Under the pieces are notes generated by a model. The model saw only the letters and a program-made list of their open reading frames with translations. It searched no databases and had not been told where the DNA came from. From a virus: 25,952 nt of DNA. Location of the stretch: positions 1 to 25,952 of IMG/VR virus record IMGVR_UViG_3300009154_000241, one strand, 5' to 3'. Positions 113 through 25,952 of the stretch are shown here, in pieces (the stretch's first letter is position 1; every line of letters starts with the position of its first letter). The translations under genes and the position numbers were made by a program.

Positions 113-3100
113 ATGAGCCTGCAAGTACTCGCAAACCACATGGCCGCGCAGGGTCGCGGGCCTGACTCTACGCTCGTCCACATGTCACCCAAAGAGGTGC
201 AGAGTCTTCAAAAGCTGGCTCAGGCACATGGCGGTACACTGACTATCAACCCCGAAACGGGACTACCCGAAGCTGGGTTTTTGGACAACCTGCTGCCCAC
301 ATTGGCTGGCGCGGCTCTTGCTTTTGTGGCTCCCGAGGCTATGCTGGCTGTTGGCAGCACTTTTGGTGGCGGCGCAGCGCTGGGCGCTGGTTTGACTGTT
401 GGCGGTATTGATGCGTTGGCTACGGGAAGTTTGTCGCATGGGCTGATGTCTGGCCTTGGTGCTTGGGGCGGCGCTGGTATTGAAGGCGGTTTGGCTAATG
501 CCGGAACAAGCGCGATGGCGCAAGCTGCTGAAAATCAAACAGCACAAGAAACCGCCCGCCTTGCCGCCAAAGAGGCAATGAACCCCGCGAACATTTTGGC
601 CAACCGAGGCGCTACGGACATTGCCTCACAAATGGCCGGGGCTCAAAACCCCATGACTGCCGGTTTGGAGCAAGCAGCATCAAACCCCTTGGGAGTGGCA
701 AAGTCAATTGGCTGGAAGCCTATGGCCGCAGCAGCGCTGCCGGTACTGGCCAATATCAATACAACGACCCAACTGCCGACCAGCACCAATACGCCCCAGT
801 ACATCCGCCCGTTTGCGTATGACCCACGCACCCAAGGCTTGCAGTCGTTGGGAATTAGAGACGCTTCTACAGTGCACTTGGCTGGCGGCGGTTCTACCAA
901 GACTCCGGTCTGGGGGCCAGATGGAAAAAAGTATCCTGACGCGTCTGCTGCATTAGACGCAGGAGTAACAAACTACACGACAACAGATCCCGGTACGGCT
1001 GCTACCCCCGTAGCTCCAGCTGCAACTTCTATAACTGGCCAAAAATCTTTGTCCGGCGCGGATATGGGGTACGGAACCGATCTCAGCCCGCAACTAGCCG
1101 AGCGCCCAGTTCTTGGAATTAACCGCCCACCGATAGGCAACTTCCCAACACAAGGTGTTGGTGATAACACCAAGCAGCCGTTCTCGCTTAACACGCTGCG
1201 TTATTTCCAAAATAACCCTGACGCACATGCTGCGTACATGGCAAACTCGCGCGGTCTAAGCCCTAATCAGTACGCGGCTTTTCACTACAACACGATTGGC
1301 GCTGCTCAAGGCCGCGCTTCTCCAGCAGCGTTGGGCCCCGGATATAGTATGACCGGCGATTCTGCCGAGGCGTATAACTACTTAATGGGTTACGGCCCCT
1401 CTGGCGGCCAAGTACCTACCCCCGTGCCCCGACCGCCCGTAGCCCCGACACCGGTTACCCCCACGCCTACAGGCCCAGTAACCCCAACACCCACAGGCCC
1501 AGTAACCCCCGTATATGTACCCACGCCTGTAAGCCCGACTCCGGTAAGCCCGACTCCGGTAAGCCCAACTCCGGTAAGCCCGACGCCAGTAGCTCCTACG
1601 CCTGTGGCTCCTACGCCTGTCTCGCCGACTCCGGTAAGCCCAACGCCTGTCTCGCCAACGCCTGTCTCGCCAACGCCTGTCTCGCCAACGCCTGTAAGCC
1701 CAACGCCTGTAAGCCCAACGCCTGTAAGCCCAACGCCAGTAAGCCCAACGCCTGTAAGCCCAACGCCTGTAAGCCCAACGCCTGTAAGCCCAACGCCTGT
1801 AAGCCCAACGCCTGTCTCGCCAACGCCTGTCAGCCCAACACCAGTAAGCCCAACACCAGTAAGCCCAACACCAGTAAGCCCAACGCCCGTGGCTCCGACC
1901 CCAACGCCGGGGCCGGATTTACCTGTGCCTGTATATGTGCCGAGCCCACCAGTACCATCGCCTGTAAGCCCAACACCAGTACCCGATATTCCGGTGCCCG
2001 GAATCCCCACGCCGACCAACATCGACGATATAACCAAGTACTTGACTGAGGGCAACACGGTAACAACAACCCCAACGCCTACGCCAAATACCACGGTTAC
2101 GACCAATCCAGCGGTAACGTATACCGATGCGCAGATCCAAAATGCTATTGACGCATCAAGAGCGCAGGGGTTTACTGATGACCAAATTCGACAAGGTGCG
2201 GCGCGATACGGCGTTAATGACCTGACTAAGTACTTGACAGAAGTACCGGTAACACCTGTATCCCCAACTCCGGTAAGCCCGACTCCGGTATCCCCGACTC
2301 CAGTAAGCCCAACCCCCGTTGCGCCCACACCGGTAACAGAAAGCAATACGGTACTATCCCAAACTGATTTGGATGCCATAGCTGCGCACGATGCGTTTGT
2401 TCAAGGCAATGCAAATACTGGAAGCGGTAGTAACTTAAACAATATCTTAAATAACCTCCCCGTAGTCCCGGTTCCGCAGTCGTACACAGTGCAAGTCGGC
2501 CCATTAACTGGCACAGTGCCAGCAGGCTACAACGCCAACAGCATATATGATCCCAACAACCCTTATGCCGCTGAAAATGCAAATACACAGGCGTTGTTAA
2601 AAGCAGGGGTTCCGGGATTAGCGGAATCACTAGGGGCTCGTAACGTCACAACACAACTGACCCCTGACCAAATAGCGGACATTGCAAACGCTAGACAACA
2701 AGCAGCCATAACGAATACGCAAAACGCAGCAGTTAGTGCGCAGTCTCCAACGGGGCTGTCAGGCCTAGCCACAATGCCTGTCGGCGGAACACTAACAGAC
2801 CAACCTGCGTTTGACCAACCAGACTTTGCGGGTGGTATTGCGGGTGGCACTGGAAACAAAGCCAATGAAATACAAGAAATCCCAGAAGCCAAAGGCGGTT
2901 TGCTCTCGTTGGCTATGGGCGGCATGGCCCAAGGCGGAATGTATAACCTAGGTTCATACTCTGATGGTGGCCGGTTATTGCGTGGCCCCGGCGATGGCGT
3001 ATCTGATAGCATCCCTGCTACCATTGGGCAACACCAGCCAGCACGCTTGGCTGACGGAGAGTTCGTGATCCCCGCCCGTATAGTGTCTGAATTGGGCAAC

Positions 3101-3229
3101 GGCTCAACCGAAGCTGGGGCACGTAAACTGTACGCCATGATGGATCGTGTTCAACAGGCCCGTGGCAAAACCACAGGCAAAAATAGCGTAGCCGTGAACA
3201 GCCGCGCAGATAAACACCTGCCGATATGA
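113..3229 (+). CDS. Large virion protein with Pro-rich SPTPV repeat tracts
   Basis: Putative virion or internal core protein of 1038 residues; exact role unknown. Residues about 56-130 form a Gly/Ala-rich hydrophobic segment that could insert in a membrane, as in other ejection proteins. Around residues 364-402 there is a module of the 'YxxNPD...HY...G...GR' type that recurs in bacterial surface and phage proteins. Residues 474-593 are 24 units of S/A-P-T-P-V, and residues 717-741 are five more. Between them lies a short helical module (DAQIQNAI...[11 protein letters not shown]...YGV) preceded and followed by copies of TKYLTE. The C-terminus (about 925-1038) is Gly-rich and then reads [14 protein letters not shown]...[17 protein letters not shown], a conserved-looking tail found in many podovirus virion proteins. 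It ends in ATGA, overlapping the next gene. The Pro-rich tract is probably an extended stalk or linker; the identity is by context, not by a defined family. Confidence 0.85.
1532..1891 (+). repeat. 24-unit tandem 15-bp coding repeat (S/A-P-T-P-V)
   Basis: Twenty-four contiguous 15-bp units, all in frame. Twenty-two encode SPTPV and two (units 5 and 6) encode APTPV. The commonest DNA unit is agcccaacgcctgta (units 12, 13 and 15-18). A second class starts with tcg (units 7, 9-11 and 20). Units 21-23 share aca-cca. Runs of identical neighbours are the mark of recent slippage or unequal exchange. The array continues more loosely on both sides (PTPTGPV units upstream, PTPTPG and VPSPP downstream). 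Confidence 0.95.
2261..2335 (+). repeat. Second, 5-unit [10 protein letters not shown] repeat block
   Basis: Five further 15-bp units, four SPTPV and one APTPV, in the same gene about 370 bp downstream of the main array. Ser codons alternate tcc and agc, and Thr codons are act, acc and aca, so this block is more diverged from the main array than the array units are from each other. It directly follows the second copy of the TKYLTE peptide. Confidence 0.9.
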
Positions 3230-6693: not shown

Positions 6694-9600
6694 ATGCCCC
6701 AATACGAAATAAATGTCCCCGGATCAGGAACTTATCGTGTTGACTCGCCCGTAGAACTTACAGACGAACAGGCCTACGCGGCTGTTCAAAGTCAAATAGC
6801 TAGCGCCGGAGCGCAGCCCAAACCCACTACCGGCATTTTGTCCGCGTTGGGTTCTGGGTTCAGGGGCGGTATTGGGCAGTTTGCCGAGGACACTGGGACA
6901 GAGTTGGGCCTAGAGGGGTTGACCAAGTTTGGCCAGCGCCAGCAGCAAAAGGCTCAGCAAGGCTACCGCCCAACAACCGAAGCAGACATTGAAGCCGCAA
7001 GCCAGCGCGGTCTTTTCCCAGAACTTGGTGCGTACGCATCCAAAGCAATCGAGCCGCTTGCACAAGACATTGGTGCTATGGGCGGGCGGTTTGTTACGCC
7101 AATGGCCGCTGCTGCGGCTGTTCCTTTTATTGCCCCCGAAGCTGGGGCCGTAGCCGCTGGCGCGGCTTTTGTTGGTGCAGATGTTTCCGCAGATATAGGC
7201 GAGCTGGCCAAACGCCGCAAAGCCGCAGGACAACCCCCAGACCACATGGCTGATATCGCCGGTGGTATCACCAATGCAGTCATCAACGCATTCTCGGGTG
7301 TGGCTATGGCCGGGCCAATTAAAGGCTTGCTGGGTAAAACAGCCGCCGAGCAGGCCGCAGCCCTTGCGCCAAAAGTAGCCGCCGGAGAACTGACTGCCGA
7401 AGCCGCCGCTAAACAAGTGTCGGGTACGCTGACAAATATCGCCCACAGCACGGCAGAAAATGCACTCATCGGCACAGGCATGATGGTGGGCAACGAGGCT
7501 GTGTCTCGGGCAGCGCTGGGGCAGGACTTGACCTCCCCCGAGGCCATGCAGCAATACCTCGAGTCCACAAAAGGGGCATTGGGCTTGGCCCCCATATTCG
7601 GGCTGGCGCACGGCATTGGTGCACGACGCGGCGCAGTAGGCGAGTTAAACACCGCCGAAGGAATCCGCAACGCTGACGTGCGAGCCCAAGCAGAAGCCGA
7701 TCAAGCCAAGACCGAAGCGCAGGCTGCGGCAGCAGAACAGCAACGCACACAAAGCCCCGAGTACGCCCAGCAGGCGCAGGCTACTTATCAGGCTGAACAG
7801 CAGAAATACGACGATCTTAAGTCGCAGCTCATACCCAAACCGCAGACCGAAATTGACAAGCAGCGCAACGCTGCCGTGGTGGCCCAGCTCAAAGAGCAAT
7901 ACAAGACACTCAAAACCGCAGCCGCTGAAGCGCTGCGCAGCGAGCAGTTCCTGCCCAAAACCCCCGAGGCCCCGGCAGCAGAAGCACCAGCCGCGCCAAC
8001 CGTACCGGAAGCGCCCAAACCCGACTTGTACAAGTCGATGGAGCAGCATGACCTGCTCACCAAGCAGCTCGATACGCTTAAAGCCCAAGCGGCTGACGCA
8101 GCGCAGAAGCAGGATACTGGCGCGGTGCGCGACCTTAGCGCGCAGATCAAAGACCTTCAAGGGAGGATGGAACAGTCATCCCAGCAAATTGAAAGTCTTG
8201 GCGGCACGACCCAAACCCCCGAGGGGCTGGAGACCCAGCACCAAGCCAACCTGTCGGCGCTCGACAGCAAGATCGACTCTACCAAGAAGAAGATGCTTGA
8301 CGCCACACAAGGCGAAGACTTTGACGCAGCCAGCCAGCACGCTACTACACTGGACGAACTTCAAGCCCAACGGTCGCAGCAGATACAGGACTACACACAA
8401 CGCGTAAATGCGCTCCGAGGCAAAGTTACGTCCAAGGGCGAAACCATCGGTATGTTTACCGAGAAAGAAGCGCCTGCACCAAAAGAGGCCGAAGTCGCCA
8501 AAGAAGAAACGCCAGCCGAAGTGCCAGCACCAGCCAAAGAAGAAAAAGGCCCGGTGCAGCAAGAACTGTTTGGCGAGTACAACATCCTGAACACTGCGCT
8601 GCAAAACAAAGACGAGCCCACCATCAAGCGGATGACGCAAGCCTACGAGCAGAAGAAACTGCAAGAGCGCAACAAAACGCGTGACCAAGAGAAAGCTGAC
8701 AATGACAAGCTCATTAAATCTTTGGACGATCGGCTTAATCTTGAGGGCACCAAAGTTAAGCGCACCGAAATGGCGGGGGATGATTACAACCGCCTGCTTG
8801 AAAAAATTCAAACCGAAAGAGACAAGATTGAGAAACCGCAAGGTAATGCCCGCATTTCGGTACTTGACCGGCTTTACGAACTGGCTGACGAACACGGCAA
8901 GCTGCAAGAAAAAATTGACAGCCCCACTACCAGCGCCAAAGATAAGGCCTACGCGCAGCGCCGCATGGGCACACTGGCCAAAGAATACGCTCGTCTTGTC
9001 GAGACTCGGGTTGAGCCTGCCAAACAAAAGGTAATTGACCTGCACAAGCGGTTTCGCACGATTGAGCCTGCTAAGTCCGCCGAAACCTTGCGGGCCGAAA
9101 AGAAAGCCGAAAGCGATCGACTGGCCCGTGAGGCCGGAGAAAAAGGCCCGTCCCCCGAAGCCAAGCGCGCAGCGCGGATTAACGCCGGTGATATCCGGTA
9201 CGAGGTGGAGAAGTCCAAAGACTTCCGTGACTTATCGGTGCTGCTCGGCCAAGAACACCCTGACTTTAAACCCCAGCTTGCAGAAGTACAGAAACGCCTC
9301 AAGGCGTTGCGGGACAAGTACGGCCCAGACGATAAGGCCGTTGCAGAGTACAAACAGGAAGCCACCAAGCAACTAGGTGAAACGGCAAAGAAACTGGGCC
9401 GCTCTACCCCCGAGTACAAAGAGACGCTAAAGCAACGGCTTGAAGATATGCGTGAGTCCCTTGCCAGCGCTGGCAAGCAGGAGGTTAAGAGCAAGCGCAC
9501 AACGCAAGAAACGCGCACTGTACGGCGCGCTCCACGGGAACTTGGCAAACAACTCTACCGTGACTTTGAAGAAGGTATCGCATCCGAGAAGAACGGCCCG

Positions 9601-12600
9601 GCTGTTTACCAAACGCGGGAGAGCAGTGGCCCTGCCATGCGCGAAGAAGAGGTCAAGCGGTTTATCACCCGCATAGTGCAGGACTGGAAGAAAGTCCCCA
9701 ATATCGTCTTTGCCCGCAACTTTGACGCGTTGCCAGAGAATATTAAGGCGCAAGCCCGCGCTGACAATATGGAAGGCAAAATCCCCGGCGTTTACGATCC
9801 GGCTACTAAGACGGCTTACATTGTTGGCGACAAGATGCACACCGCCGAGGACGTTATTGCCACGGTGGCCCATGAGGTTACCGGCCACTTTGGCCTGCGC
9901 GAAGTACTTGGCGAAGAGTACAACAGCAAAATGAACGAGCTGTATGACGGCAACAACGAGGTGCGTAAACGCGCCGACGAGAAACTCAAGGCGAGCGATG
10001 CGGGCGAAGGCCCCAAGCTGAACAAGGAAGTTGCTGTCGAAGAAGTGCTGGCAGAGATGGCCGAGAACCCCAAGCCGTCCCCCGAAGAGCGCGGCGCTGT
10101 GCGCAAGATCATCGACGATATCAAGGAATGGTTCAAGAAGACATTCAAAGGCCAAACTTTAAGCGACGAGGCCGTGCGCCAGATCGTTGCTGACGCCCGC
10201 CAGTATGTTATCGAGGGAACCGAGCGCGGCAAGGGCGAAGCCCCCGCTGGCAAAGCTGCATACCGCACCGCTAAGTATGACCCTAAGCTGAAAGAAGCAG
10301 GCGACTTGGCAGAGAAAGTTATTGCTACCGACCGCCCACTGCACGAGAGCATGACCGCCAGCGCTCTGGGCCGCAAAGCATTGGAACTTGAAGTCAAGCT
10401 GGTCGACCAGTTTGCGCCTATAGCACGGCTTGCCAAGAAAATGGATCAGCTTGCTGGTACACAAATGATGTACTACCTGCGTATGGCGCAACAACGCACG
10501 AACCTTTTGGGCCAAGTTGTTGGCCGGGGCGTTCCTGAGTTGCGCAAAATTACCCGCCCGGACGGCCGCACCGAGTACCTGTACGAAACCAAAGACAAGA
10601 ACAACTCGCTGGTCAATGTGGCCAAGACGCTGGAGCCTGCCAACAAACTGACAGGTAGCCCAGAAGCTACAAACAACTTGTTCTCCCTGTACGAAGTTGC
10701 GCAGCGCGCCAAGGACGTCGGTCTCGAAAAGCTAGACTACAGCGGCAAAATAACACAGGCCCAACTTGATTCGGCCATGCGCCAGATTGCATCTGTGCCG
10801 GGGTTGGAGAACATCTTTAAAAATGCCAAGGAAGAATACCGCCGCTTTAACCAAGACATGATTAAGTTTGGCGTAAGCACCGGGCAGTTCTCCAAAGAGC
10901 TTGGCGCAAAGATGATGGCCAACAAGGACTACGTTCCTTACTACCGCGAGAACTCTGACGGCAGCGTGTCGCTGATGATGGGCAATGAGTCCATAACCAA
11001 AGTGGGCAACGTCAAAGACAAACCGTATCTGCATGAGCTTGTTGGGGATGATTCCCGAGTTGTGGATTTTGCTACCAGCTCAGTGCGTAACGCCAATATG
11101 ATTCTTGAGATGGGCTTGAACAACCAAGCGATTAAGAACACGGCATTTGAATTGCAAAAAATTGGGCTGGCCGATGTGCGCAAAGGCAAGACTACCGCTC
11201 GGGGCAACGTCCTTAACTTCAAGGTAGACGGCGAAGACCACTACGCCATAGTCAAAGACACCGACGAAGTTCCTGCGGAGCTTTTGGTCAAAGGCATGGA
11301 AGGCATGCCTATCCAGCCCAGCGCTTTGATGCGCCTTGTGGGCGCTCCCAGCCGGTTAATCCGTACCATGTTTGTTGCCAACCCCGTATCTGCCGGGCGC
11401 ATCTTGTTTAAGGACACGATCTCATCGGCAATGGTTGCTGGCTCGGATTTCAAAGGCATGGCGGATGCAATTAAAAACGTCAAGTCTGATTTGATGGAGC
11501 GCCGTGGTTTGTCCGGCGGCGAGGTCTACACCGGCCTGCCCGATGACCTGACCAATATCCTAAAGAAAGTTCAAGCTGGCGGCCCAAACTGGGAAAAGTT
11601 GCTGGCCAAGGGCTACGAGCTGCACGGCAAAGCCGACGCTATGACTCGTCAGATTCGTTACGAAAGCTACCTCAAGCAGGGGCTATCCGAAATGGAAGCC
11701 AGCTACATGGCGCTGGAGTCCATGAACTTTACGCGGCGCGGAATATCGCCTAGCCTGCACGTACTGAACGCCATCAATCCGTTCATGAACTCCCAAATCC
11801 AAGGCATCAATACTTTGGTCAAGGCGCTGCGCGGCAACATGCCGATGGAAGAGAAGTTGCAGATCAAACAGAAAATCATTCAGCGCGGGATGATGCTGGC
11901 TGGGGCTTCTATGGTGTACGCCGCCATGATGCAGGACGACGAGACGTACAAGAACGCGCTGCCAGAGCAAAAGTACAACAACTTCTTTGTGCCGTTCCCC
12001 GGCGTGGACGAGATGGTGCGGGTACCGATTCCGTTTGAAGCGGGCATCGTATTCAAGTCTTTGCCAGAAGCGGTGATGAACTACATCTACGGCCACGACA
12101 AGGAAGCTGCCACGGCAATACGCATGATGGCGCAGAAACTTCTTCCCGGCGGTGACACAGATTACGTGCCGCAGATCCTCAAGCCTGCCATCGAGGTGGG
12201 GTTGGGCAAGTCGTTCTACACAGGCCGTGACATTGAGAGCAAACATGAGCAATCCTTGACGCCCGGTATGCGGGTGCGGGACAGCACGTCTGGCTTTGCT
12301 GCTGAGCTGGGCTCCGCGCTCAATATATCCCCAGTCAAAATTGACCACCTGATAAGCGGATACACCGGGTCGATGGGGCTGGCAGTTGCGCAGATGGCAA
12401 GCTCGCTGGTATTTGGGCCGCAGAACCCCAATGAGCCGGAGAAGAACTTGTCGCGGGAACCTATTGTAGGCACGCTGTTCCAACCCAAAGACGCTGGCAA
12501 CATTGTCGAGGAAGCCTACCAGACCATGACCGAGGCTGAGCAAGTCCGGGCTACGGTTGCCGACCTGCTCAAGAAAAACAAACCCGACGAAGCCAAAGCA

Positions 12601-12804
12601 TTTTTGGATAAGAACGCCGAGGCTTTTGCTCGCGGCGCTTCAGCAGGCAGTTTCAACACCGTGATGCGTAACTACCAAACTCAGATGCAGGCGGTCACCG
12701 TTGATCCCAACCTGACACCAGAGCAAAAACGTACACGGCTGGAAGAACTGCGGGCCAAGCGTACGGAGTACGCCGAGAAAATGCAGCAAATGATGCAGCG
12801 CTAG
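6694..12804 (+). CDS. Giant (2036 aa) ejection protein: zincin and LPD38-like domains
   Basis: Very large virion protein in the position of T7 gp16. It begins with a small beta-type module (YEINVPGSGTYRVDSP...LTDEQAY) found at the N-terminus of related phage proteins. Residues about 130-270 contain hydrophobic Ala/Gly-rich segments that could cross a membrane. Residues about 325-960 are charged, Ala/Gln/Lys-rich coiled coil. Residues about 1000-1130 form a zinc metallopeptidase (zincin)-like domain: an upstream GVYDPATKTAYIVGD strand, HEVTGH at 1060-1065 followed by FGLREVL, and a later EEVLAEMAEN that may supply the third ligand. Residues about 1540-1790 resemble LPD38, a domain of large polyvalent proteins: VANPVSAGRILFKDT, then YLKQGLSEMEASYMA, then NAINPFMNSQIQG. 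Predicted roles are DNA ejection and protein cleavage in the infected cell. GAGGTGGG ahead of the ATG is the SD. The stop is TAG in the shared CTAG. Confidence 0.85.
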   Translation: MPQYEINVPGSGTYRVDSPVELTDEQAYAAVQSQIASAGAQPKPTTGILSALGSGFRGGIGQFAEDTGTELGLEGLTKFGQRQQQKAQQGYRPTTEADIEAASQRGLFPELGAYASKAIEPLAQDIGAMGGRFVTPMAAAAAVPFIAPEAGAVAAGAAFVGADVSADIGELAKRRKAAGQPPDHMADIAGGITNAVINAFSGVAMAGPIKGLLGKTAAEQAAALAPKVAAGELTAEAAAKQVSGTLTNIAHSTAENALIGTGMMVGNEAVSRAALGQDLTSPEAMQQYLESTKGALGLAPIFGLAHGIGARRGAVGELNTAEGIRNADVRAQAEADQAKTEAQAAAAEQQRTQSPEYAQQAQATYQAEQQKYDDLKSQLIPKPQTEIDKQRNAAVVAQLKEQYKTLKTAAAEALRSEQFLPKTPEAPAAEAPAAPTVPEAPKPDLYKSMEQHDLLTKQLDTLKAQAADAAQKQDTGAVRDLSAQIKDLQGRMEQSSQQIESLGGTTQTPEGLETQHQANLSALDSKIDSTKKKMLDATQGEDFDAASQHATTLDELQAQRSQQIQDYTQRVNALRGKVTSKGETIGMFTEKEAPAPKEAEVAKEETPAEVPAPAKEEKGPVQQELFGEYNILNTALQNKDEPTIKRMTQAYEQKKLQERNKTRDQEKADNDKLIKSLDDRLNLEGTKVKRTEMAGDDYNRLLEKIQTERDKIEKPQGNARISVLDRLYELADEHGKLQEKIDSPTTSAKDKAYAQRRMGTLAKEYARLVETRVEPAKQKVIDLHKRFRTIEPAKSAETLRAEKKAESDRLAREAGEKGPSPEAKRAARINAGDIRYEVEKSKDFRDLSVLLGQEHPDFKPQLAEVQKRLKALRDKYGPDDKAVAEYKQEATKQLGETAKKLGRSTPEYKETLKQRLEDMRESLASAGKQEVKSKRTTQETRTVRRAPRELGKQLYRDFEEGIASEKNGPAVYQTRESSGPAMREEEVKRFITRIVQDWKKVPNIVFARNFDALPENIKAQARADNMEGKIPGVYDPATKTAYIVGDKMHTAEDVIATVAHEVTGHFGLREVLGEEYNSKMNELYDGNNEVRKRADEKLKASDAGEGPKLNKEVAVEEVLAEMAENPKPSPEERGAVRKIIDDIKEWFKKTFKGQTLSDEAVRQIVADARQYVIEGTERGKGEAPAGKAAYRTAKYDPKLKEAGDLAEKVIATDRPLHESMTASALGRKALELEVKLVDQFAPIARLAKKMDQLAGTQMMYYLRMAQQRTNLLGQVVGRGVPELRKITRPDGRTEYLYETKDKNNSLVNVAKTLEPANKLTGSPEATNNLFSLYEVAQRAKDVGLEKLDYSGKITQAQLDSAMRQIASVPGLENIFKNAKEEYRRFNQDMIKFGVSTGQFSKELGAKMMANKDYVPYYRENSDGSVSLMMGNESITKVGNVKDKPYLHELVGDDSRVVDFATSSVRNANMILEMGLNNQAIKNTAFELQKIGLADVRKGKTTARGNVLNFKVDGEDHYAIVKDTDEVPAELLVKGMEGMPIQPSALMRLVGAPSRLIRTMFVANPVSAGRILFKDTISSAMVAGSDFKGMADAIKNVKSDLMERRGLSGGEVYTGLPDDLTNILKKVQAGGPNWEKLLAKGYELHGKADAMTRQIRYESYLKQGLSEMEASYMALESMNFTRRGISPSLHVLNAINPFMNSQIQGINTLVKALRGNMPMEEKLQIKQKIIQRGMMLAGASMVYAAMMQDDETYKNALPEQKYNNFFVPFPGVDEMVRVPIPFEAGIVFKSLPEAVMNYIYGHDKEAATAIRMMAQKLLPGGDTDYVPQILKPAIEVGLGKSFYTGRDIESKHEQSLTPGMRVRDSTSGFAAELGSALNISPVKIDHLISGYTGSMGLAVAQMASSLVFGPQNPNEPEKNLSREPIVGTLFQPKDAGNIVEEAYQTMTEAEQVRATVADLLKKNKPDEAKAFLDKNAEAFARGASAGSFNTVMRNYQTQMQAVTVDPNLTPEQKRTRLEELRAKRTEYAEKMQQMMQR
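12801..12804. other. CTAG shared by the stop codons of two convergent genes
   Basis: The palindrome CTAG gives TAG at 12802-12804 on the + strand (end of the 2036-aa gene) and TAG at 12803-12801 on the - strand (end of the 67-aa gene). The two transcription blocks therefore meet with no untranslated spacer, and any terminator must lie inside coding DNA. Confidence 0.9.
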
Positions 12805-23441: not shown

Positions 23442-23650
23442 GGTTGTTCCTTTTTTCTTCGGTTGATCTTGATGGCGGCTATGCCCTCCTCGGATTCAGA
23501 GGTAGGCTCGGCCTGCCGCGCTGCAATGAAGGCGTTGGCAATATCAAGTGCTTGCTCGTGCGGGTGGTTGTCGTACTTGTTCCTAACCAACAGCGCAGCC
23601 ATAGCAAACATGGCCGCCAAGTCCCGCAGGTTTTGTTCGTGTTCAGTCAT
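23438..23650 (-). CDS. Small phage protein, unknown function (70 aa)
   Basis: Protein of 70 residues: MTEHEQNLRDLAAMFAMAAL then a helical run, with an acidic middle (EPTSESEEGIAAI) and a basic end (KINRRKKEQP). It could be a helical bundle with a disordered basic tail. GGAG is 7 bases from the ATG. It lies 2 bases after the end of the JmjC gene and overlaps the 58-aa gene by 4 bases, forming a unit with it. No family recognised. Confidence 0.7.
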   Translation of the reverse strand: MTEHEQNLRDLAAMFAMAALLVRNKYDNHPHEQALDIANAFIAARQAEPTSESEEGIAAIKINRRKKEQP

Positions 23651-23652
23651 TG

Positions 23653-24663
23653 TTATCTCCGTACGGGTTTATAAAAGCTCCACCTATTATCGAACGGAAA
23701 TCCTGTCAGCGTCAGCGATACGCACGGCGTCAAAGACTGCACTGCGTGCCACCAGTTTATTGGTATAAAAATTGCTTCGCCTTCGTTTACCACAACGTCC
23801 ATGACATGCACGTCACGCATCTTGGGAAACTTGTTGTAGTCGATATCAAAAATATTTACCTCTGAAAAAACGCCTACGTGGTTGTACAGATACGTGCAGT
23901 AGTTGGGGCTTATCATTATCCATCGTTTAGATCCGTGCAGGTTTGGGTGAATGATTCCCGACTCGTCGTGGTGCAGCGGCGTCAGCGTACCCTTTGGCCC
24001 GACCCACAGATGCGCGGTGTGTGAGTCAGCTGTTGGTGGTGTGCAGTAGTCAGGTATGTTTTCCAACGTCTTTAGCACATCCCCTAAGCGCGTGTTTCTT
24101 ATAGAGAAGTTGTTGGCCGTCATGTAGAAGTCGTTGGTATCTCCAGTGTCCAGTATGCGTTTAATAAACTTGGACATGGATATGGTTGACTTCAGCTTGG
24201 TGCTGTTGATTTCATACTCGGGGTCAGCCATCCGGCCTTCTTGTATTTCCACGACTTCGTCGCCGTAGTTGTGCAGCAAGTAGTCCATAGTCCAGCGATC
24301 GTAGTTATCGCACCGATCAAGAAAGTCCGTGATGATGACCGGCTTGTTTGCTATCCAGTAATCGTGGAAGAAGCTCTCCTTGGTCAGCCCTGATACTCTA
24401 TCAATCGTCAGGCGCGTGGGGTCTTGGGCAAGCAGCTTTTGGTGGTTTAAATTTACCGACTCCAACTTGCGTATCTGATCTCCCAGCTTTAGCGCTGTGC
24501 GGTATCCCGATACTCGGTTTATATTGCTGGCCAAAGTTATTACTTCTGACTCGGGCACATCTGCTGCCAGCATGGCGGTCACAATCGCTTTGGGGTCTAC
24601 GCCCATAGCAAGGTTTTCCAAATACCATTCTATCCAGCGTGGTTCTAAATTAAGTGCAAACAT
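23653..24663 (-). CDS. JmjC/cupin_8 Fe(II)/2-oxoglutarate-dependent oxygenase
   Basis: Oxygenase of 336 residues. Residues about 10-80 are a helical N-terminal module (WIEWYLENLAMGVDPKAIV) of the kind seen ahead of bacterial cupin-like proteins. Residues about 85-325 are the JmjC/cupin_8 fold: NKPVIITDF near 106-114, then the metal site H231-x-D233 (LHHDES), the 2-oxoglutarate lysine K246 in GSKRWIMISP (13 residues after the Asp, as in FIH), and the distal His H306 in NWWHAVQS. All iron ligands and the probable co-substrate lysine are present, so it should be active. The family hydroxylates Asn, Asp, His, Arg or Lys side chains of proteins, or demethylates. Target here unknown. It follows the glycosyltransferase by 2 bases and uses a SD (AAAGGAG) within that gene's last codons. 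Confidence 0.88.
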   Translation of the reverse strand: MFALNLEPRWIEWYLENLAMGVDPKAIVTAMLAADVPESEVITLASNINRVSGYRTALKLGDQIRKLESVNLNHQKLLAQDPTRLTIDRVSGLTKESFFHDYWIANKPVIITDFLDRCDNYDRWTMDYLLHNYGDEVVEIQEGRMADPEYEINSTKLKSTISMSKFIKRILDTGDTNDFYMTANNFSIRNTRLGDVLKTLENIPDYCTPPTADSHTAHLWVGPKGTLTPLHHDESGIIHPNLHGSKRWIMISPNYCTYLYNHVGVFSEVNIFDIDYNKFPKMRDVHVMDVVVNEGEAIFIPINWWHAVQSLTPCVSLTLTGFPFDNRWSFYKPVRR

Positions 24664-24665
24664 TT

Positions 24666-25793
24666 CTACTCCTTTGTCCAGTGTGGGTGTGTTGAGTTAT
24701 CCCAAGACCAGCGCTTATCTGCTCGCAGTGTCCAAGGCATGGGGCTGTCTATATAAGCGGGTCTGTCCTTGGGCATTTCTTTCCAGCCGCCTTCTGTGTA
24801 AAGCACTGTGTTGATGCCCATGTAATCATCTGCCTGTCTGCCAGCTTCGCCTCTGATCTTGTTGATCTTTGCTGAGTACGTCGACGGCTTTGTGCCCATG
24901 AAAAACTTAGCGTTGCTACAGATGATCTGCTCGACTATCGCCTTCTCCAAGGGCGTGAAATCAAAACCAAAGTCATCATAGAAAGCCAGTTCGTACTGGC
25001 CCTTGAACGCATCAAACAAATCGCGGTTGGTCTCGTCTGTGGCGATGTACAGCGGCGGGCCGTTGTACTCCTCGAACTTCTTAACCTGATCGAGCAGCTT
25101 ATCCCCAGTGTCGATACCCTTGAGGAACTCGCTGTATTGATGGAAAAAATCCCCACGCCGTACGTGCGCTGCGTTGTAGCTGCCCAACTTCTTTGCGACC
25201 TCTTTGGCCATGTAGAAGTACATCTCCTTGTAACGCATGGCGTTGGCCATCTTGTCCTTGAGGATGTTGCGCTGCTCCTTATCGCAGTAGACGTGGTAGA
25301 AATAATGCCCAAACAAATTGTTTTCAAAGTGCAGAAACTTTTCAGGCCGATCCAAGTCAACCGGTATTCTGTCTGCTGCAAACACTTTGTAGTCCTCTGT
25401 GTCGGGCCTGCCGTTTACCAGCAACGCGTGCTCTTCGCACACTACGTTGCCTTCCCTCGGTTTGTACCAAAATAAATTTGGCACGTGCTCAAGGATGTTG
25501 CCTGTGTATGACCGTTTCGTCTGCATCTTCTCCTTGGCTGCGCGCAGCTCAGGCACATCATCAAAATCAATAACAGAAAACGCCTCGGCCACCGCTGGCT
25601 TGTAGAGCACGTCCCACATATCAATGAACTTATCCCTGTGGTTCTCCGTAGATAGAAACGCCATGAACGCCTTGGGCGGCAACACCAGCGTCCTGCCAGT
25701 GATGTGCGCTATGCTCAACGCCAACTCGTAGCTCATCAGTACATTGCCCAGCCCCGCGTAGTACGGACTAAAGGTAACGTACCGCGCAGTCAT
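24666..25793 (-). CDS. O-fucosyltransferase-like GT-B glycosyltransferase
   Basis: Predicted glycosyltransferase of 375 residues. The N-terminus YYAGLGNVLMSYELALSIAH (G14-L15-G16-N17) is the nucleotide-sugar loop common to fucosyltransferase-type GT-B enzymes. HVRRGD (210-215) is the motif that holds GDP-fucose in O-FucT, alpha1,6-FucT and alpha1,2-FucT families. Next come LYIATDE (248-254) and FFMGTKPSTYSAKINKIRG (297-315), equivalent to the 'F-x-G-x-x-x-S-S/T-F/Y' segment of POFUT-type enzymes. It should use a GDP-sugar, likely GDP-fucose, and add it to protein or glycan. No membrane segment or signal peptide is evident, so it is probably cytoplasmic. It overlaps the preceding truncated gene by 4 bases (ATGA) and is followed by the JmjC gene 2 bases later. 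Substrate unknown; sugar specificity cannot be read from motifs. Confidence 0.82.
   Translation of the reverse strand: MTARYVTFSPYYAGLGNVLMSYELALSIAHITGRTLVLPPKAFMAFLSTENHRDKFIDMWDVLYKPAVAEAFSVIDFDDVPELRAAKEKMQTKRSYTGNILEHVPNLFWYKPREGNVVCEEHALLVNGRPDTEDYKVFAADRIPVDLDRPEKFLHFENNLFGHYFYHVYCDKEQRNILKDKMANAMRYKEMYFYMAKEVAKKLGSYNAAHVRRGDFFHQYSEFLKGIDTGDKLLDQVKKFEEYNGPPLYIATDETNRDLFDAFKGQYELAFYDDFGFDFTPLEKAIVEQIICSNAKFFMGTKPSTYSAKINKIRGEAGRQADDYMGINTVLYTEGGWKEMPKDRPAYIDSPMPWTLRADKRWSWDNSTHPHWTKE
24669..24675 (-). promoter_or_regulatory. Shine-Dalgarno of the JmjC gene inside the glycosyltransferase end
   Basis: AAAGGAG on the - strand is formed by the codons for the last Lys-Glu of the glycosyltransferase, followed by its TAG and, 5 bases on, the ATG of the JmjC gene. 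The overlap ties translation of the two enzymes together. Confidence 0.75.
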
Positions 25794-25952
25794 TCATCAG
25801 CTCCGTCAGGGTGGGGGCAGTTTTCTGGGGGCACTATAGCGCAGTAAACCGCCCGCCACTTACCAATGCCTTTGATGGAATCTGTCCTAGGCACCCAGCG
25901 GTCAATGTAAACATCGGGCATATTGGTCAAATAGTTTTTTGTGTTGGTGTAG
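25790..25952 (-). CDS. 3' end of an unknown gene upstream of the glycosyltransferase (partial)
   Basis: An open frame enters from the right edge and ends with TGA at 25792-25790, inside the ATGA start of the glycosyltransferase. The visible 53 residues include DVYIDRWVPRTDSIKGIGKW and RAVYCAIVPPENCPHPDGADE, with two Cys. An internal Met (MPDVYI) could be a start, but no SD is clear ahead of it, so I treat it as a truncated longer gene. No family recognised. The 4-base overlap puts it in the same run as the glycosyltransferase and JmjC genes, so it may belong to the same pathway. Confidence 0.55.
   Translation of the reverse strand, partial: YTNTKNYLTNMPDVYIDRWVPRTDSIKGIGKWRAVYCAIVPPENCPHPDGADE

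Follow-up and report, generated by a model that had tools for sequence, protein, structure and literature searches.

A coupled glycosyltransferase and JmjC oxygenase gene pair in an environmental phage: a putative mobile cassette for protein hydroxylation and O-glycosylation

Here, we describe two adjacent genes, encoding a glycosyltransferase (GT) of the O-FucT family and a JmjC-type Fe(II)/2-oxoglutarate (2OG) oxygenase, on a 25,952-base stretch of viral DNA (hereafter the window; positions 1 to 25,952 of IMG/VR record IMGVR_UViG_3300009154_000241), a virus contig from environmental DNA that represents a genome fragment. Both genes lie on the minus strand, with the GT gene (375 amino acids, aa) at 24666..25793 and the oxygenase gene (336 aa) directly downstream at 23653..24663. 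The junction between them reads TGG ACA AAG GAG TAG AA ATG, whereby the last two sense codons of the GT gene, AAGGAG, resemble a Shine-Dalgarno (SD) sequence for the JmjC gene; this SD-like element, the TAG stop and the 2-base spacer together span 24664..24674 (minus strand). At its other end, the start of the GT gene overlaps the stop of a small upstream gene in an ATGA (25790..25793, minus strand). By this overlap and the SD within the GT gene end, all three genes are coupled. The initial annotation of the window had already described the 2-base gap and the embedded SD, and had placed the pair at the head of a replication run; both descriptions hold, with genes for a nuclease, a family-A DNA polymerase, an SNF2 helicase and a DUF927 primase following the pair.

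The GT has PF10250 (O-FucT) as its sole Pfam match (E=2.4e-16, 60.7 bits; curated cut-off 31.5), and carries both motifs, HVRRGDF at residues 210-216 and GTKPSTYS at 300-307, with which it had been described as a GDP-sugar GT (HVRRGD and G-x-x-x-STYS). Moreover, N17, H210, R212, R213, D215, F216, S304 and T305 are invariant across the 21 phage GT relatives discussed below. A PDB sequence search returned POFUT2 at 3e-6 with the single sequence and at 3e-16 with a profile, and Foldseek searches with an AF2 model (pLDDT 84, pTM 0.88) gave POFUT2, POFUT1 and NodZ as the best matches, with E-values down to 1e-10. The likeness to POFUT2 (GT68), the best match by both profile and fold, includes the H-x-R-R-x-D-F and Q-x-x-C....F-x-G-x-x-x-S-T-F/Y motifs; however, the fold alignments reach only 13-16% identity and TM-scores of about 0.5, and the sequence alignments were obtained without the N-terminal half, such that the catalytic Glu (E54 in the human enzyme) is not among the aligned residues. 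Eukaryotic POFUT2 acts in the endoplasmic reticulum on folded thrombospondin repeats. By its score, its GDP-sugar-binding motif, its C-terminal S-T motif and its GT-B fold of the POFUT/NodZ/FUT8 type, the window GT is a member of the O-FucT superfamily. A separate fold match of the GT model in BFVD (E 2.4e-4) is A0A3G5AHU0 of the giant virus Sylvanvirus, a protein named for a TPA1/OFD1 prolyl hydroxylase domain, which is possibly a further oxygenase-GT fusion.

The second protein matches PF13621 (Cupin_8; 1.4e-34, 120.5 bits, cut-off 27.4) and PF02373 (JmjC; 1.3e-8, 35.7 bits, cut-off 24), its Pfam matches being limited to Cupin_8, JmjC and JmjC_2. The residues singled out by the initial annotation, namely the iron-binding His and Asp and the 2OG-binding Lys, align with those of JMJD5-type enzymes as H231, D233 and H306 (the HxD...H triad) and K246, and in PDB sequence searches JMJD5 is the best match (1.4e-20), followed by FIH and TYW5. 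JMJD5/KDM8 and other JmjC protein hydroxylases thus share the domain and the conserved Fe/2OG residues with the window protein, but the latter has a phage-type N-terminal extension of ~80 aa, which cannot be aligned in the S. meliloti relative. The structure model reached a pLDDT of 35, the alignment behind it consisting of three near-identical rows only. Relatives at about 21-31% identity occur in diverse bacteria, some beside non-ribosomal peptide synthetase or radical-SAM genes, and no O-FucT gene adjoins them in the three neighbourhoods examined. Among phage isolates, no JmjC relative was found even at E<5, short chance matches aside. NCBIfam models matched neither the JmjC protein nor the GT.

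The distribution of the two genes within the phage group shows joint gain and loss. Near-identical GT and JmjC pairs recur on three other IMG/VR contigs, and among 80 relatives of the window phage gathered through its DNA polymerase, neither gene was found in the stretches examined, the pair-bearing contigs aside. Whole-record searches agree, with O-FucT and Cupin_8 matches in the same three of 22 records (the window, L002 and L003) and neither in the other 19. In close relatives (e.g. L096-L103; polymerase about 86-95% identical) the site is empty, with the small upstream gene abutting or overlapping the one that follows. Compared with L003, the window pair forms one block of 93% nucleotide identity (GT 95%, JmjC 93%) with its boundary at the pair (approximately 23644..25864, minus strand), against 75-85% in the flanks (polymerase 85%, nuclease 82%, helicase 78%). 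The ratio of nonsynonymous to synonymous substitution rates (dN/dS) between the two records (GT, 0.06; JmjC gene, 0.04) indicates strong purifying selection and, with the recurrence of both genes, speaks against chance reading frames. Joint presence and absence, the single identity block and the low dN/dS together show that the two genes travel, and are under selection, as one cassette that moves horizontally between viruses.

This association extends to the GT subfamily as a whole. Searching with a GT alignment alone identified 21 viral contigs, several of them near-copies, so that the counts given here refer to contigs and not to events. An oxygenase is linked to the GT in 20 of the 21, immediately adjacent or fused in 19 and three genes upstream in one. 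The partner is a JmjC protein in three contigs; the oxygenase type of Synechococcus phage S-SCSM1 is adjacent or fused in 16 and three genes off in one. A second scan, from the oxygenase side, added loci with the reversed gene order (L058, L059 and L060) and GT-oxygenase fusions of 632 aa (L062, L063, L064, L065 and L068); another fusion has 605 aa (L038). The GT tree, long-branched and unresolved at depth, keeps the two fusion lineages and the JmjC clade apart, and both gene orders, both fusion lineages and the JmjC partner are scattered over it. The partner comes from two oxygenase families, JmjC in the clade of the window and another in cyanophages. The oxygenase-side scan also recovered many oxygenases without the GT (L061, L066, L067 and L070-L091). 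Of 15 such records searched in full, two of which are JmjC contigs, 13 lacked any GT match and two showed a weak partial one. Oxygenases without the GT being common and the GT without an oxygenase rare, the pattern is the one expected if the oxygenase acts first. Outside viruses, no GT relative was found in a plasmid search, nor in two peptide-pattern scans of 84,980 cellular genomes, whose narrow patterns make this weak evidence of absence.

The only phage isolate with a GT relative is S-SCSM1, a phage of Synechococcus WH 7803; its protein shares 39.6% identity with the window GT across 99% of its length. Like the window, S-SCSM1 has an oxygenase gene directly downstream of the O-FucT gene (gp259/gp258), here with a 4-base overlap; unlike the window, this 229-kb cyanophage pairs the GT with a non-JmjC 2OG-Fe(II) oxygenase (weak PF13640/PF13661 matches) and encodes a glycan cluster. 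S-SCSM1 has 24 2OG oxygenases, and its genome description, as far as the available part goes, classes the GT under cell wall genes with no discussion of the pair (PMC9602691). Separately, the neighboring S-SCSM1 gp260 (L006:9412-9996) is annotated as a ferrochelatase. This annotation looks wrong, because in L029 the corresponding position upstream of the GT is taken by a similar gene (L029:5385-5993) that matches PF13640 (2.7e-18) and encodes a 2OG oxygenase.

Coordinated modification by the two enzymes, as first proposed from the window alone, is therefore supported by the shared gain and loss of the pair and by the near-constant adjacency or fusion of GT relatives with Fe/2OG oxygenases. The proposal was to fall if the two genes proved unlinked in related phages or the active sites not conserved. 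Neither was the case: the pair is linked, and the GT residues are invariant and the Fe/2OG residues of the JmjC protein conserved. The one limit is that the linkage is strong when viewed from the GT but not from the JmjC protein, as JmjC relatives in two other phages (L244, 34%, and L245, 30%) stand without a GT.

The strongest hint that the GT subfamily targets protein comes by analogy from distant relatives of the window GT. Four loci (L092:2950-7343, L093:1272-5665, L094:4275-8158 and L095:4290-6970, the last cut off at the locus end) encode O-FucT domains with 28-30% identity to the window GT. In each, a first protein of 423-430 aa combines a prolyl 4-hydroxylase (P4H)-type domain with a following cyanophage-type oxygenase domain; the L094 P4H domain matches solved prolyl-4-hydroxylases at 1e-24 and the Chlamydomonas enzyme at 5e-20, and a prolyl 4-hydroxylase is present in the L092-L094 records. 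Two bases on, a second gene encodes 862-1039 aa (truncated in L095), with the O-FucT domain placed between HPAT (PF23452) and PF11397 domains; PF23452 was detected in all four loci and PF11397 in L092 and L094. The hydroxyproline O-arabinosyltransferases make up PF23452, and the Skp1 hydroxyproline GlcNAc-transferase belongs to PF11397. Further PF11397 GTs follow the triple-GT genes, accompanied in L093 by a carbamoyltransferase. Possible glycosylation substrates with Thr/Ala/Ser-Pro repeats are encoded at L094:2846-4195 (449 aa, (A/S)PT repeats), just upstream of the P4H and triple-GT genes, and at L224:10399-11949 (516 aa); a repeat protein is also encoded in the L093 record, about 5 kb from these genes. 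Partners from two oxygenase families and a sister GT in what resembles a hydroxyproline-glycosylation cassette both go beyond the initial annotation. The window does not itself encode a P4H/HPAT system: its GT has no HPAT (PF23452) or PF11397 domain in Pfam searches, and a search for a prolyl 4-hydroxylase gave no PF13640 match in the records of the window, L002 and L003, each of which is a fragment. Nevertheless, it may work like one in outline. Eukaryotic hydroxyproline O-glycosylation (P4H followed by HPAT, or Skp1 P4H followed by a PF11397-type GlcNAc-transferase) follows the same logic of a 2OG oxygenase and a GT, whereas the window has JmjC instead of P4H and lacks HPAT and PF11397.

We therefore favor, with a probability of about 0.52, a two-gene, translationally coupled, mobile cassette for two-step protein hydroxylation and O-glycosylation, for which we infer the substrate, the sugar and the order of steps. 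The JmjC enzyme would first hydroxylate residues of a target protein using Fe(II), O2 and 2OG, and the O-FucT-family enzyme would then use a GDP-sugar, most likely GDP-fucose, to glycosylate the same target, probably at the hydroxyl just made or a Ser/Thr beside it. The targets would most likely be the virion proteins of the phage itself, although a host target is possible, and such decoration could alter adsorption, stability or recognition of the virion. The parts are ordinary; their combination is unusual and repeatedly selected. A broader proposal, which we regard as possible though short of probable, is that phages carry mobile cassettes for hydroxylation-primed O-glycosylation of virion proteins, in which one O-FucT-like GT subfamily works with exchangeable Fe/2OG oxygenases (JmjC, the cyanophage 2OG family, or P4H with HPAT/PF11397 GTs) as a counterpart of eukaryotic hydroxyproline/hydroxylysine glycosylation.

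Within the window, a weakly supported candidate substrate is a 1038-aa virion-type protein (113-3229), whose long (SPTPV)n repeats form a Thr/Ser/Pro-rich region at 1427..2335 (plus strand). Among 18 relatives, such repeats occur in the pair-positive L002 record. When relatives with and without the pair were compared to test this role, Pro-rich repeats were found in both, so that the protein is kept as a candidate only. A relative of this protein, L194:53-4282 (1409 aa), combines SPS-rich repeats with a HINT-like domain that falls below the PF07591 cut-off (2.6e-4). Elsewhere in the window, positions 6694-12804 encode a 2036-aa protein with an LPD38 domain (8e-32).

Several observations weigh against the favored reading. 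The pair-less records behind L097, L101 and L144 also encode Pro-rich repeats, which the rest of the 18 relatives lack, and no such repeat protein was found at the S-SCSM1 and other cyanophage loci. The cassette sits among replication genes rather than structural genes. One GT relative, on a 49-kb fragment (L037, contig 3300021364_000034), has no detected oxygenase, and the many 2OG oxygenases of cyanophages make GT-oxygenase adjacency less striking there than elsewhere. Moreover, the JmjC relatives of L244 and L245 lack a GT, which shows that the JmjC protein does not need this GT. In favor of the reading, the L245 gene (L245:4854-5984) immediately follows what reads as a major capsid protein gene, and its product is possibly a capsid hydroxylase; these two phages only loosely support a phage target.

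The main rival, which we consider unlikely, is glycan tailoring, whereby the pair would oxidize and fucosylate a host polysaccharide (lipopolysaccharide or capsule) or a lipid-linked sugar, changing receptors or blocking superinfection. The homologous S-SCSM1 pair adjoins a sugar-nucleotide/GT cluster with nucleotide-sugar epimerases, a NodZ-type fucosyltransferase, several GTs and carbamoyltransferases, which fits such a role as well and likewise counts against the protein-directed reading, and Foldseek shows the GT fold to be common to the carbohydrate fucosyltransferases NodZ, FUT8 and FUT1. Yet the nearest GT relatives by both sequence and fold are protein O-fucosyltransferases, JmjC relatives of characterized function act as hydroxylases of proteins or tRNA, the window shows no glycan cluster, and the sister GT form sits with P4H and hydroxyproline-GT-type domains. 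Less probable still is host takeover by the same two-step chemistry on a host protein, such as a ribosomal, RNA-polymerase or defence protein. The placement of the pair among replication genes would suit this, as would the action of JMJD5-like and related enzymes on cellular proteins; however, the data contain no pointer to a host factor, neither protein matched PADLOC defence models, and close relatives manage without the cassette. That the two are unrelated accessory genes, chance neighbors with no common substrate in a spot that varies among relatives and lies among small genes, is very doubtful given their joint presence and absence, translational coupling, and the repeated pairing or fusion of the GT subfamily with oxygenases. 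Least credible is DNA hypermodification of the TET/JBP-plus-GT kind, in which the oxygenase hydroxylates a base or nucleotide that the GT then glycosylates: phage clusters with a 2OG oxygenase beside a GT do exist, and in the triple-GT protein of L092 the PF11397 region has a weak match to a TET-associated GT model (E 0.018), but these clusters use other oxygenase and GT families, Tet_JBP and the phage DNA-GT families have no match in either window protein, the characterized members of both window families act on protein, RNA or glycans, the pair is absent from close relatives with the same replication genes, and the window bears no sign of a DNA target, so that membership was rejected, the defining Tet_JBP oxygenase family being absent.

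Plant cell-wall proteins, collagen and Skp1 are characteristically hydroxylated and then glycosylated at one and the same residue, a chemistry known mainly from plants and animals; in the open-licence PMC literature, we found no paper on hydroxylation-then-glycosylation, or on JmjC/GT pairing, in phages. If the protein-directed cassette proposed here is real, its compact two-gene or single-polypeptide form would offer a tractable model of hydroxylation-glycosylation chemistry and a possible tool for glyco-engineering. It would also predict chemically decorated virions and give a concrete, testable role to many unexplained 2OG oxygenases of aquatic phages.
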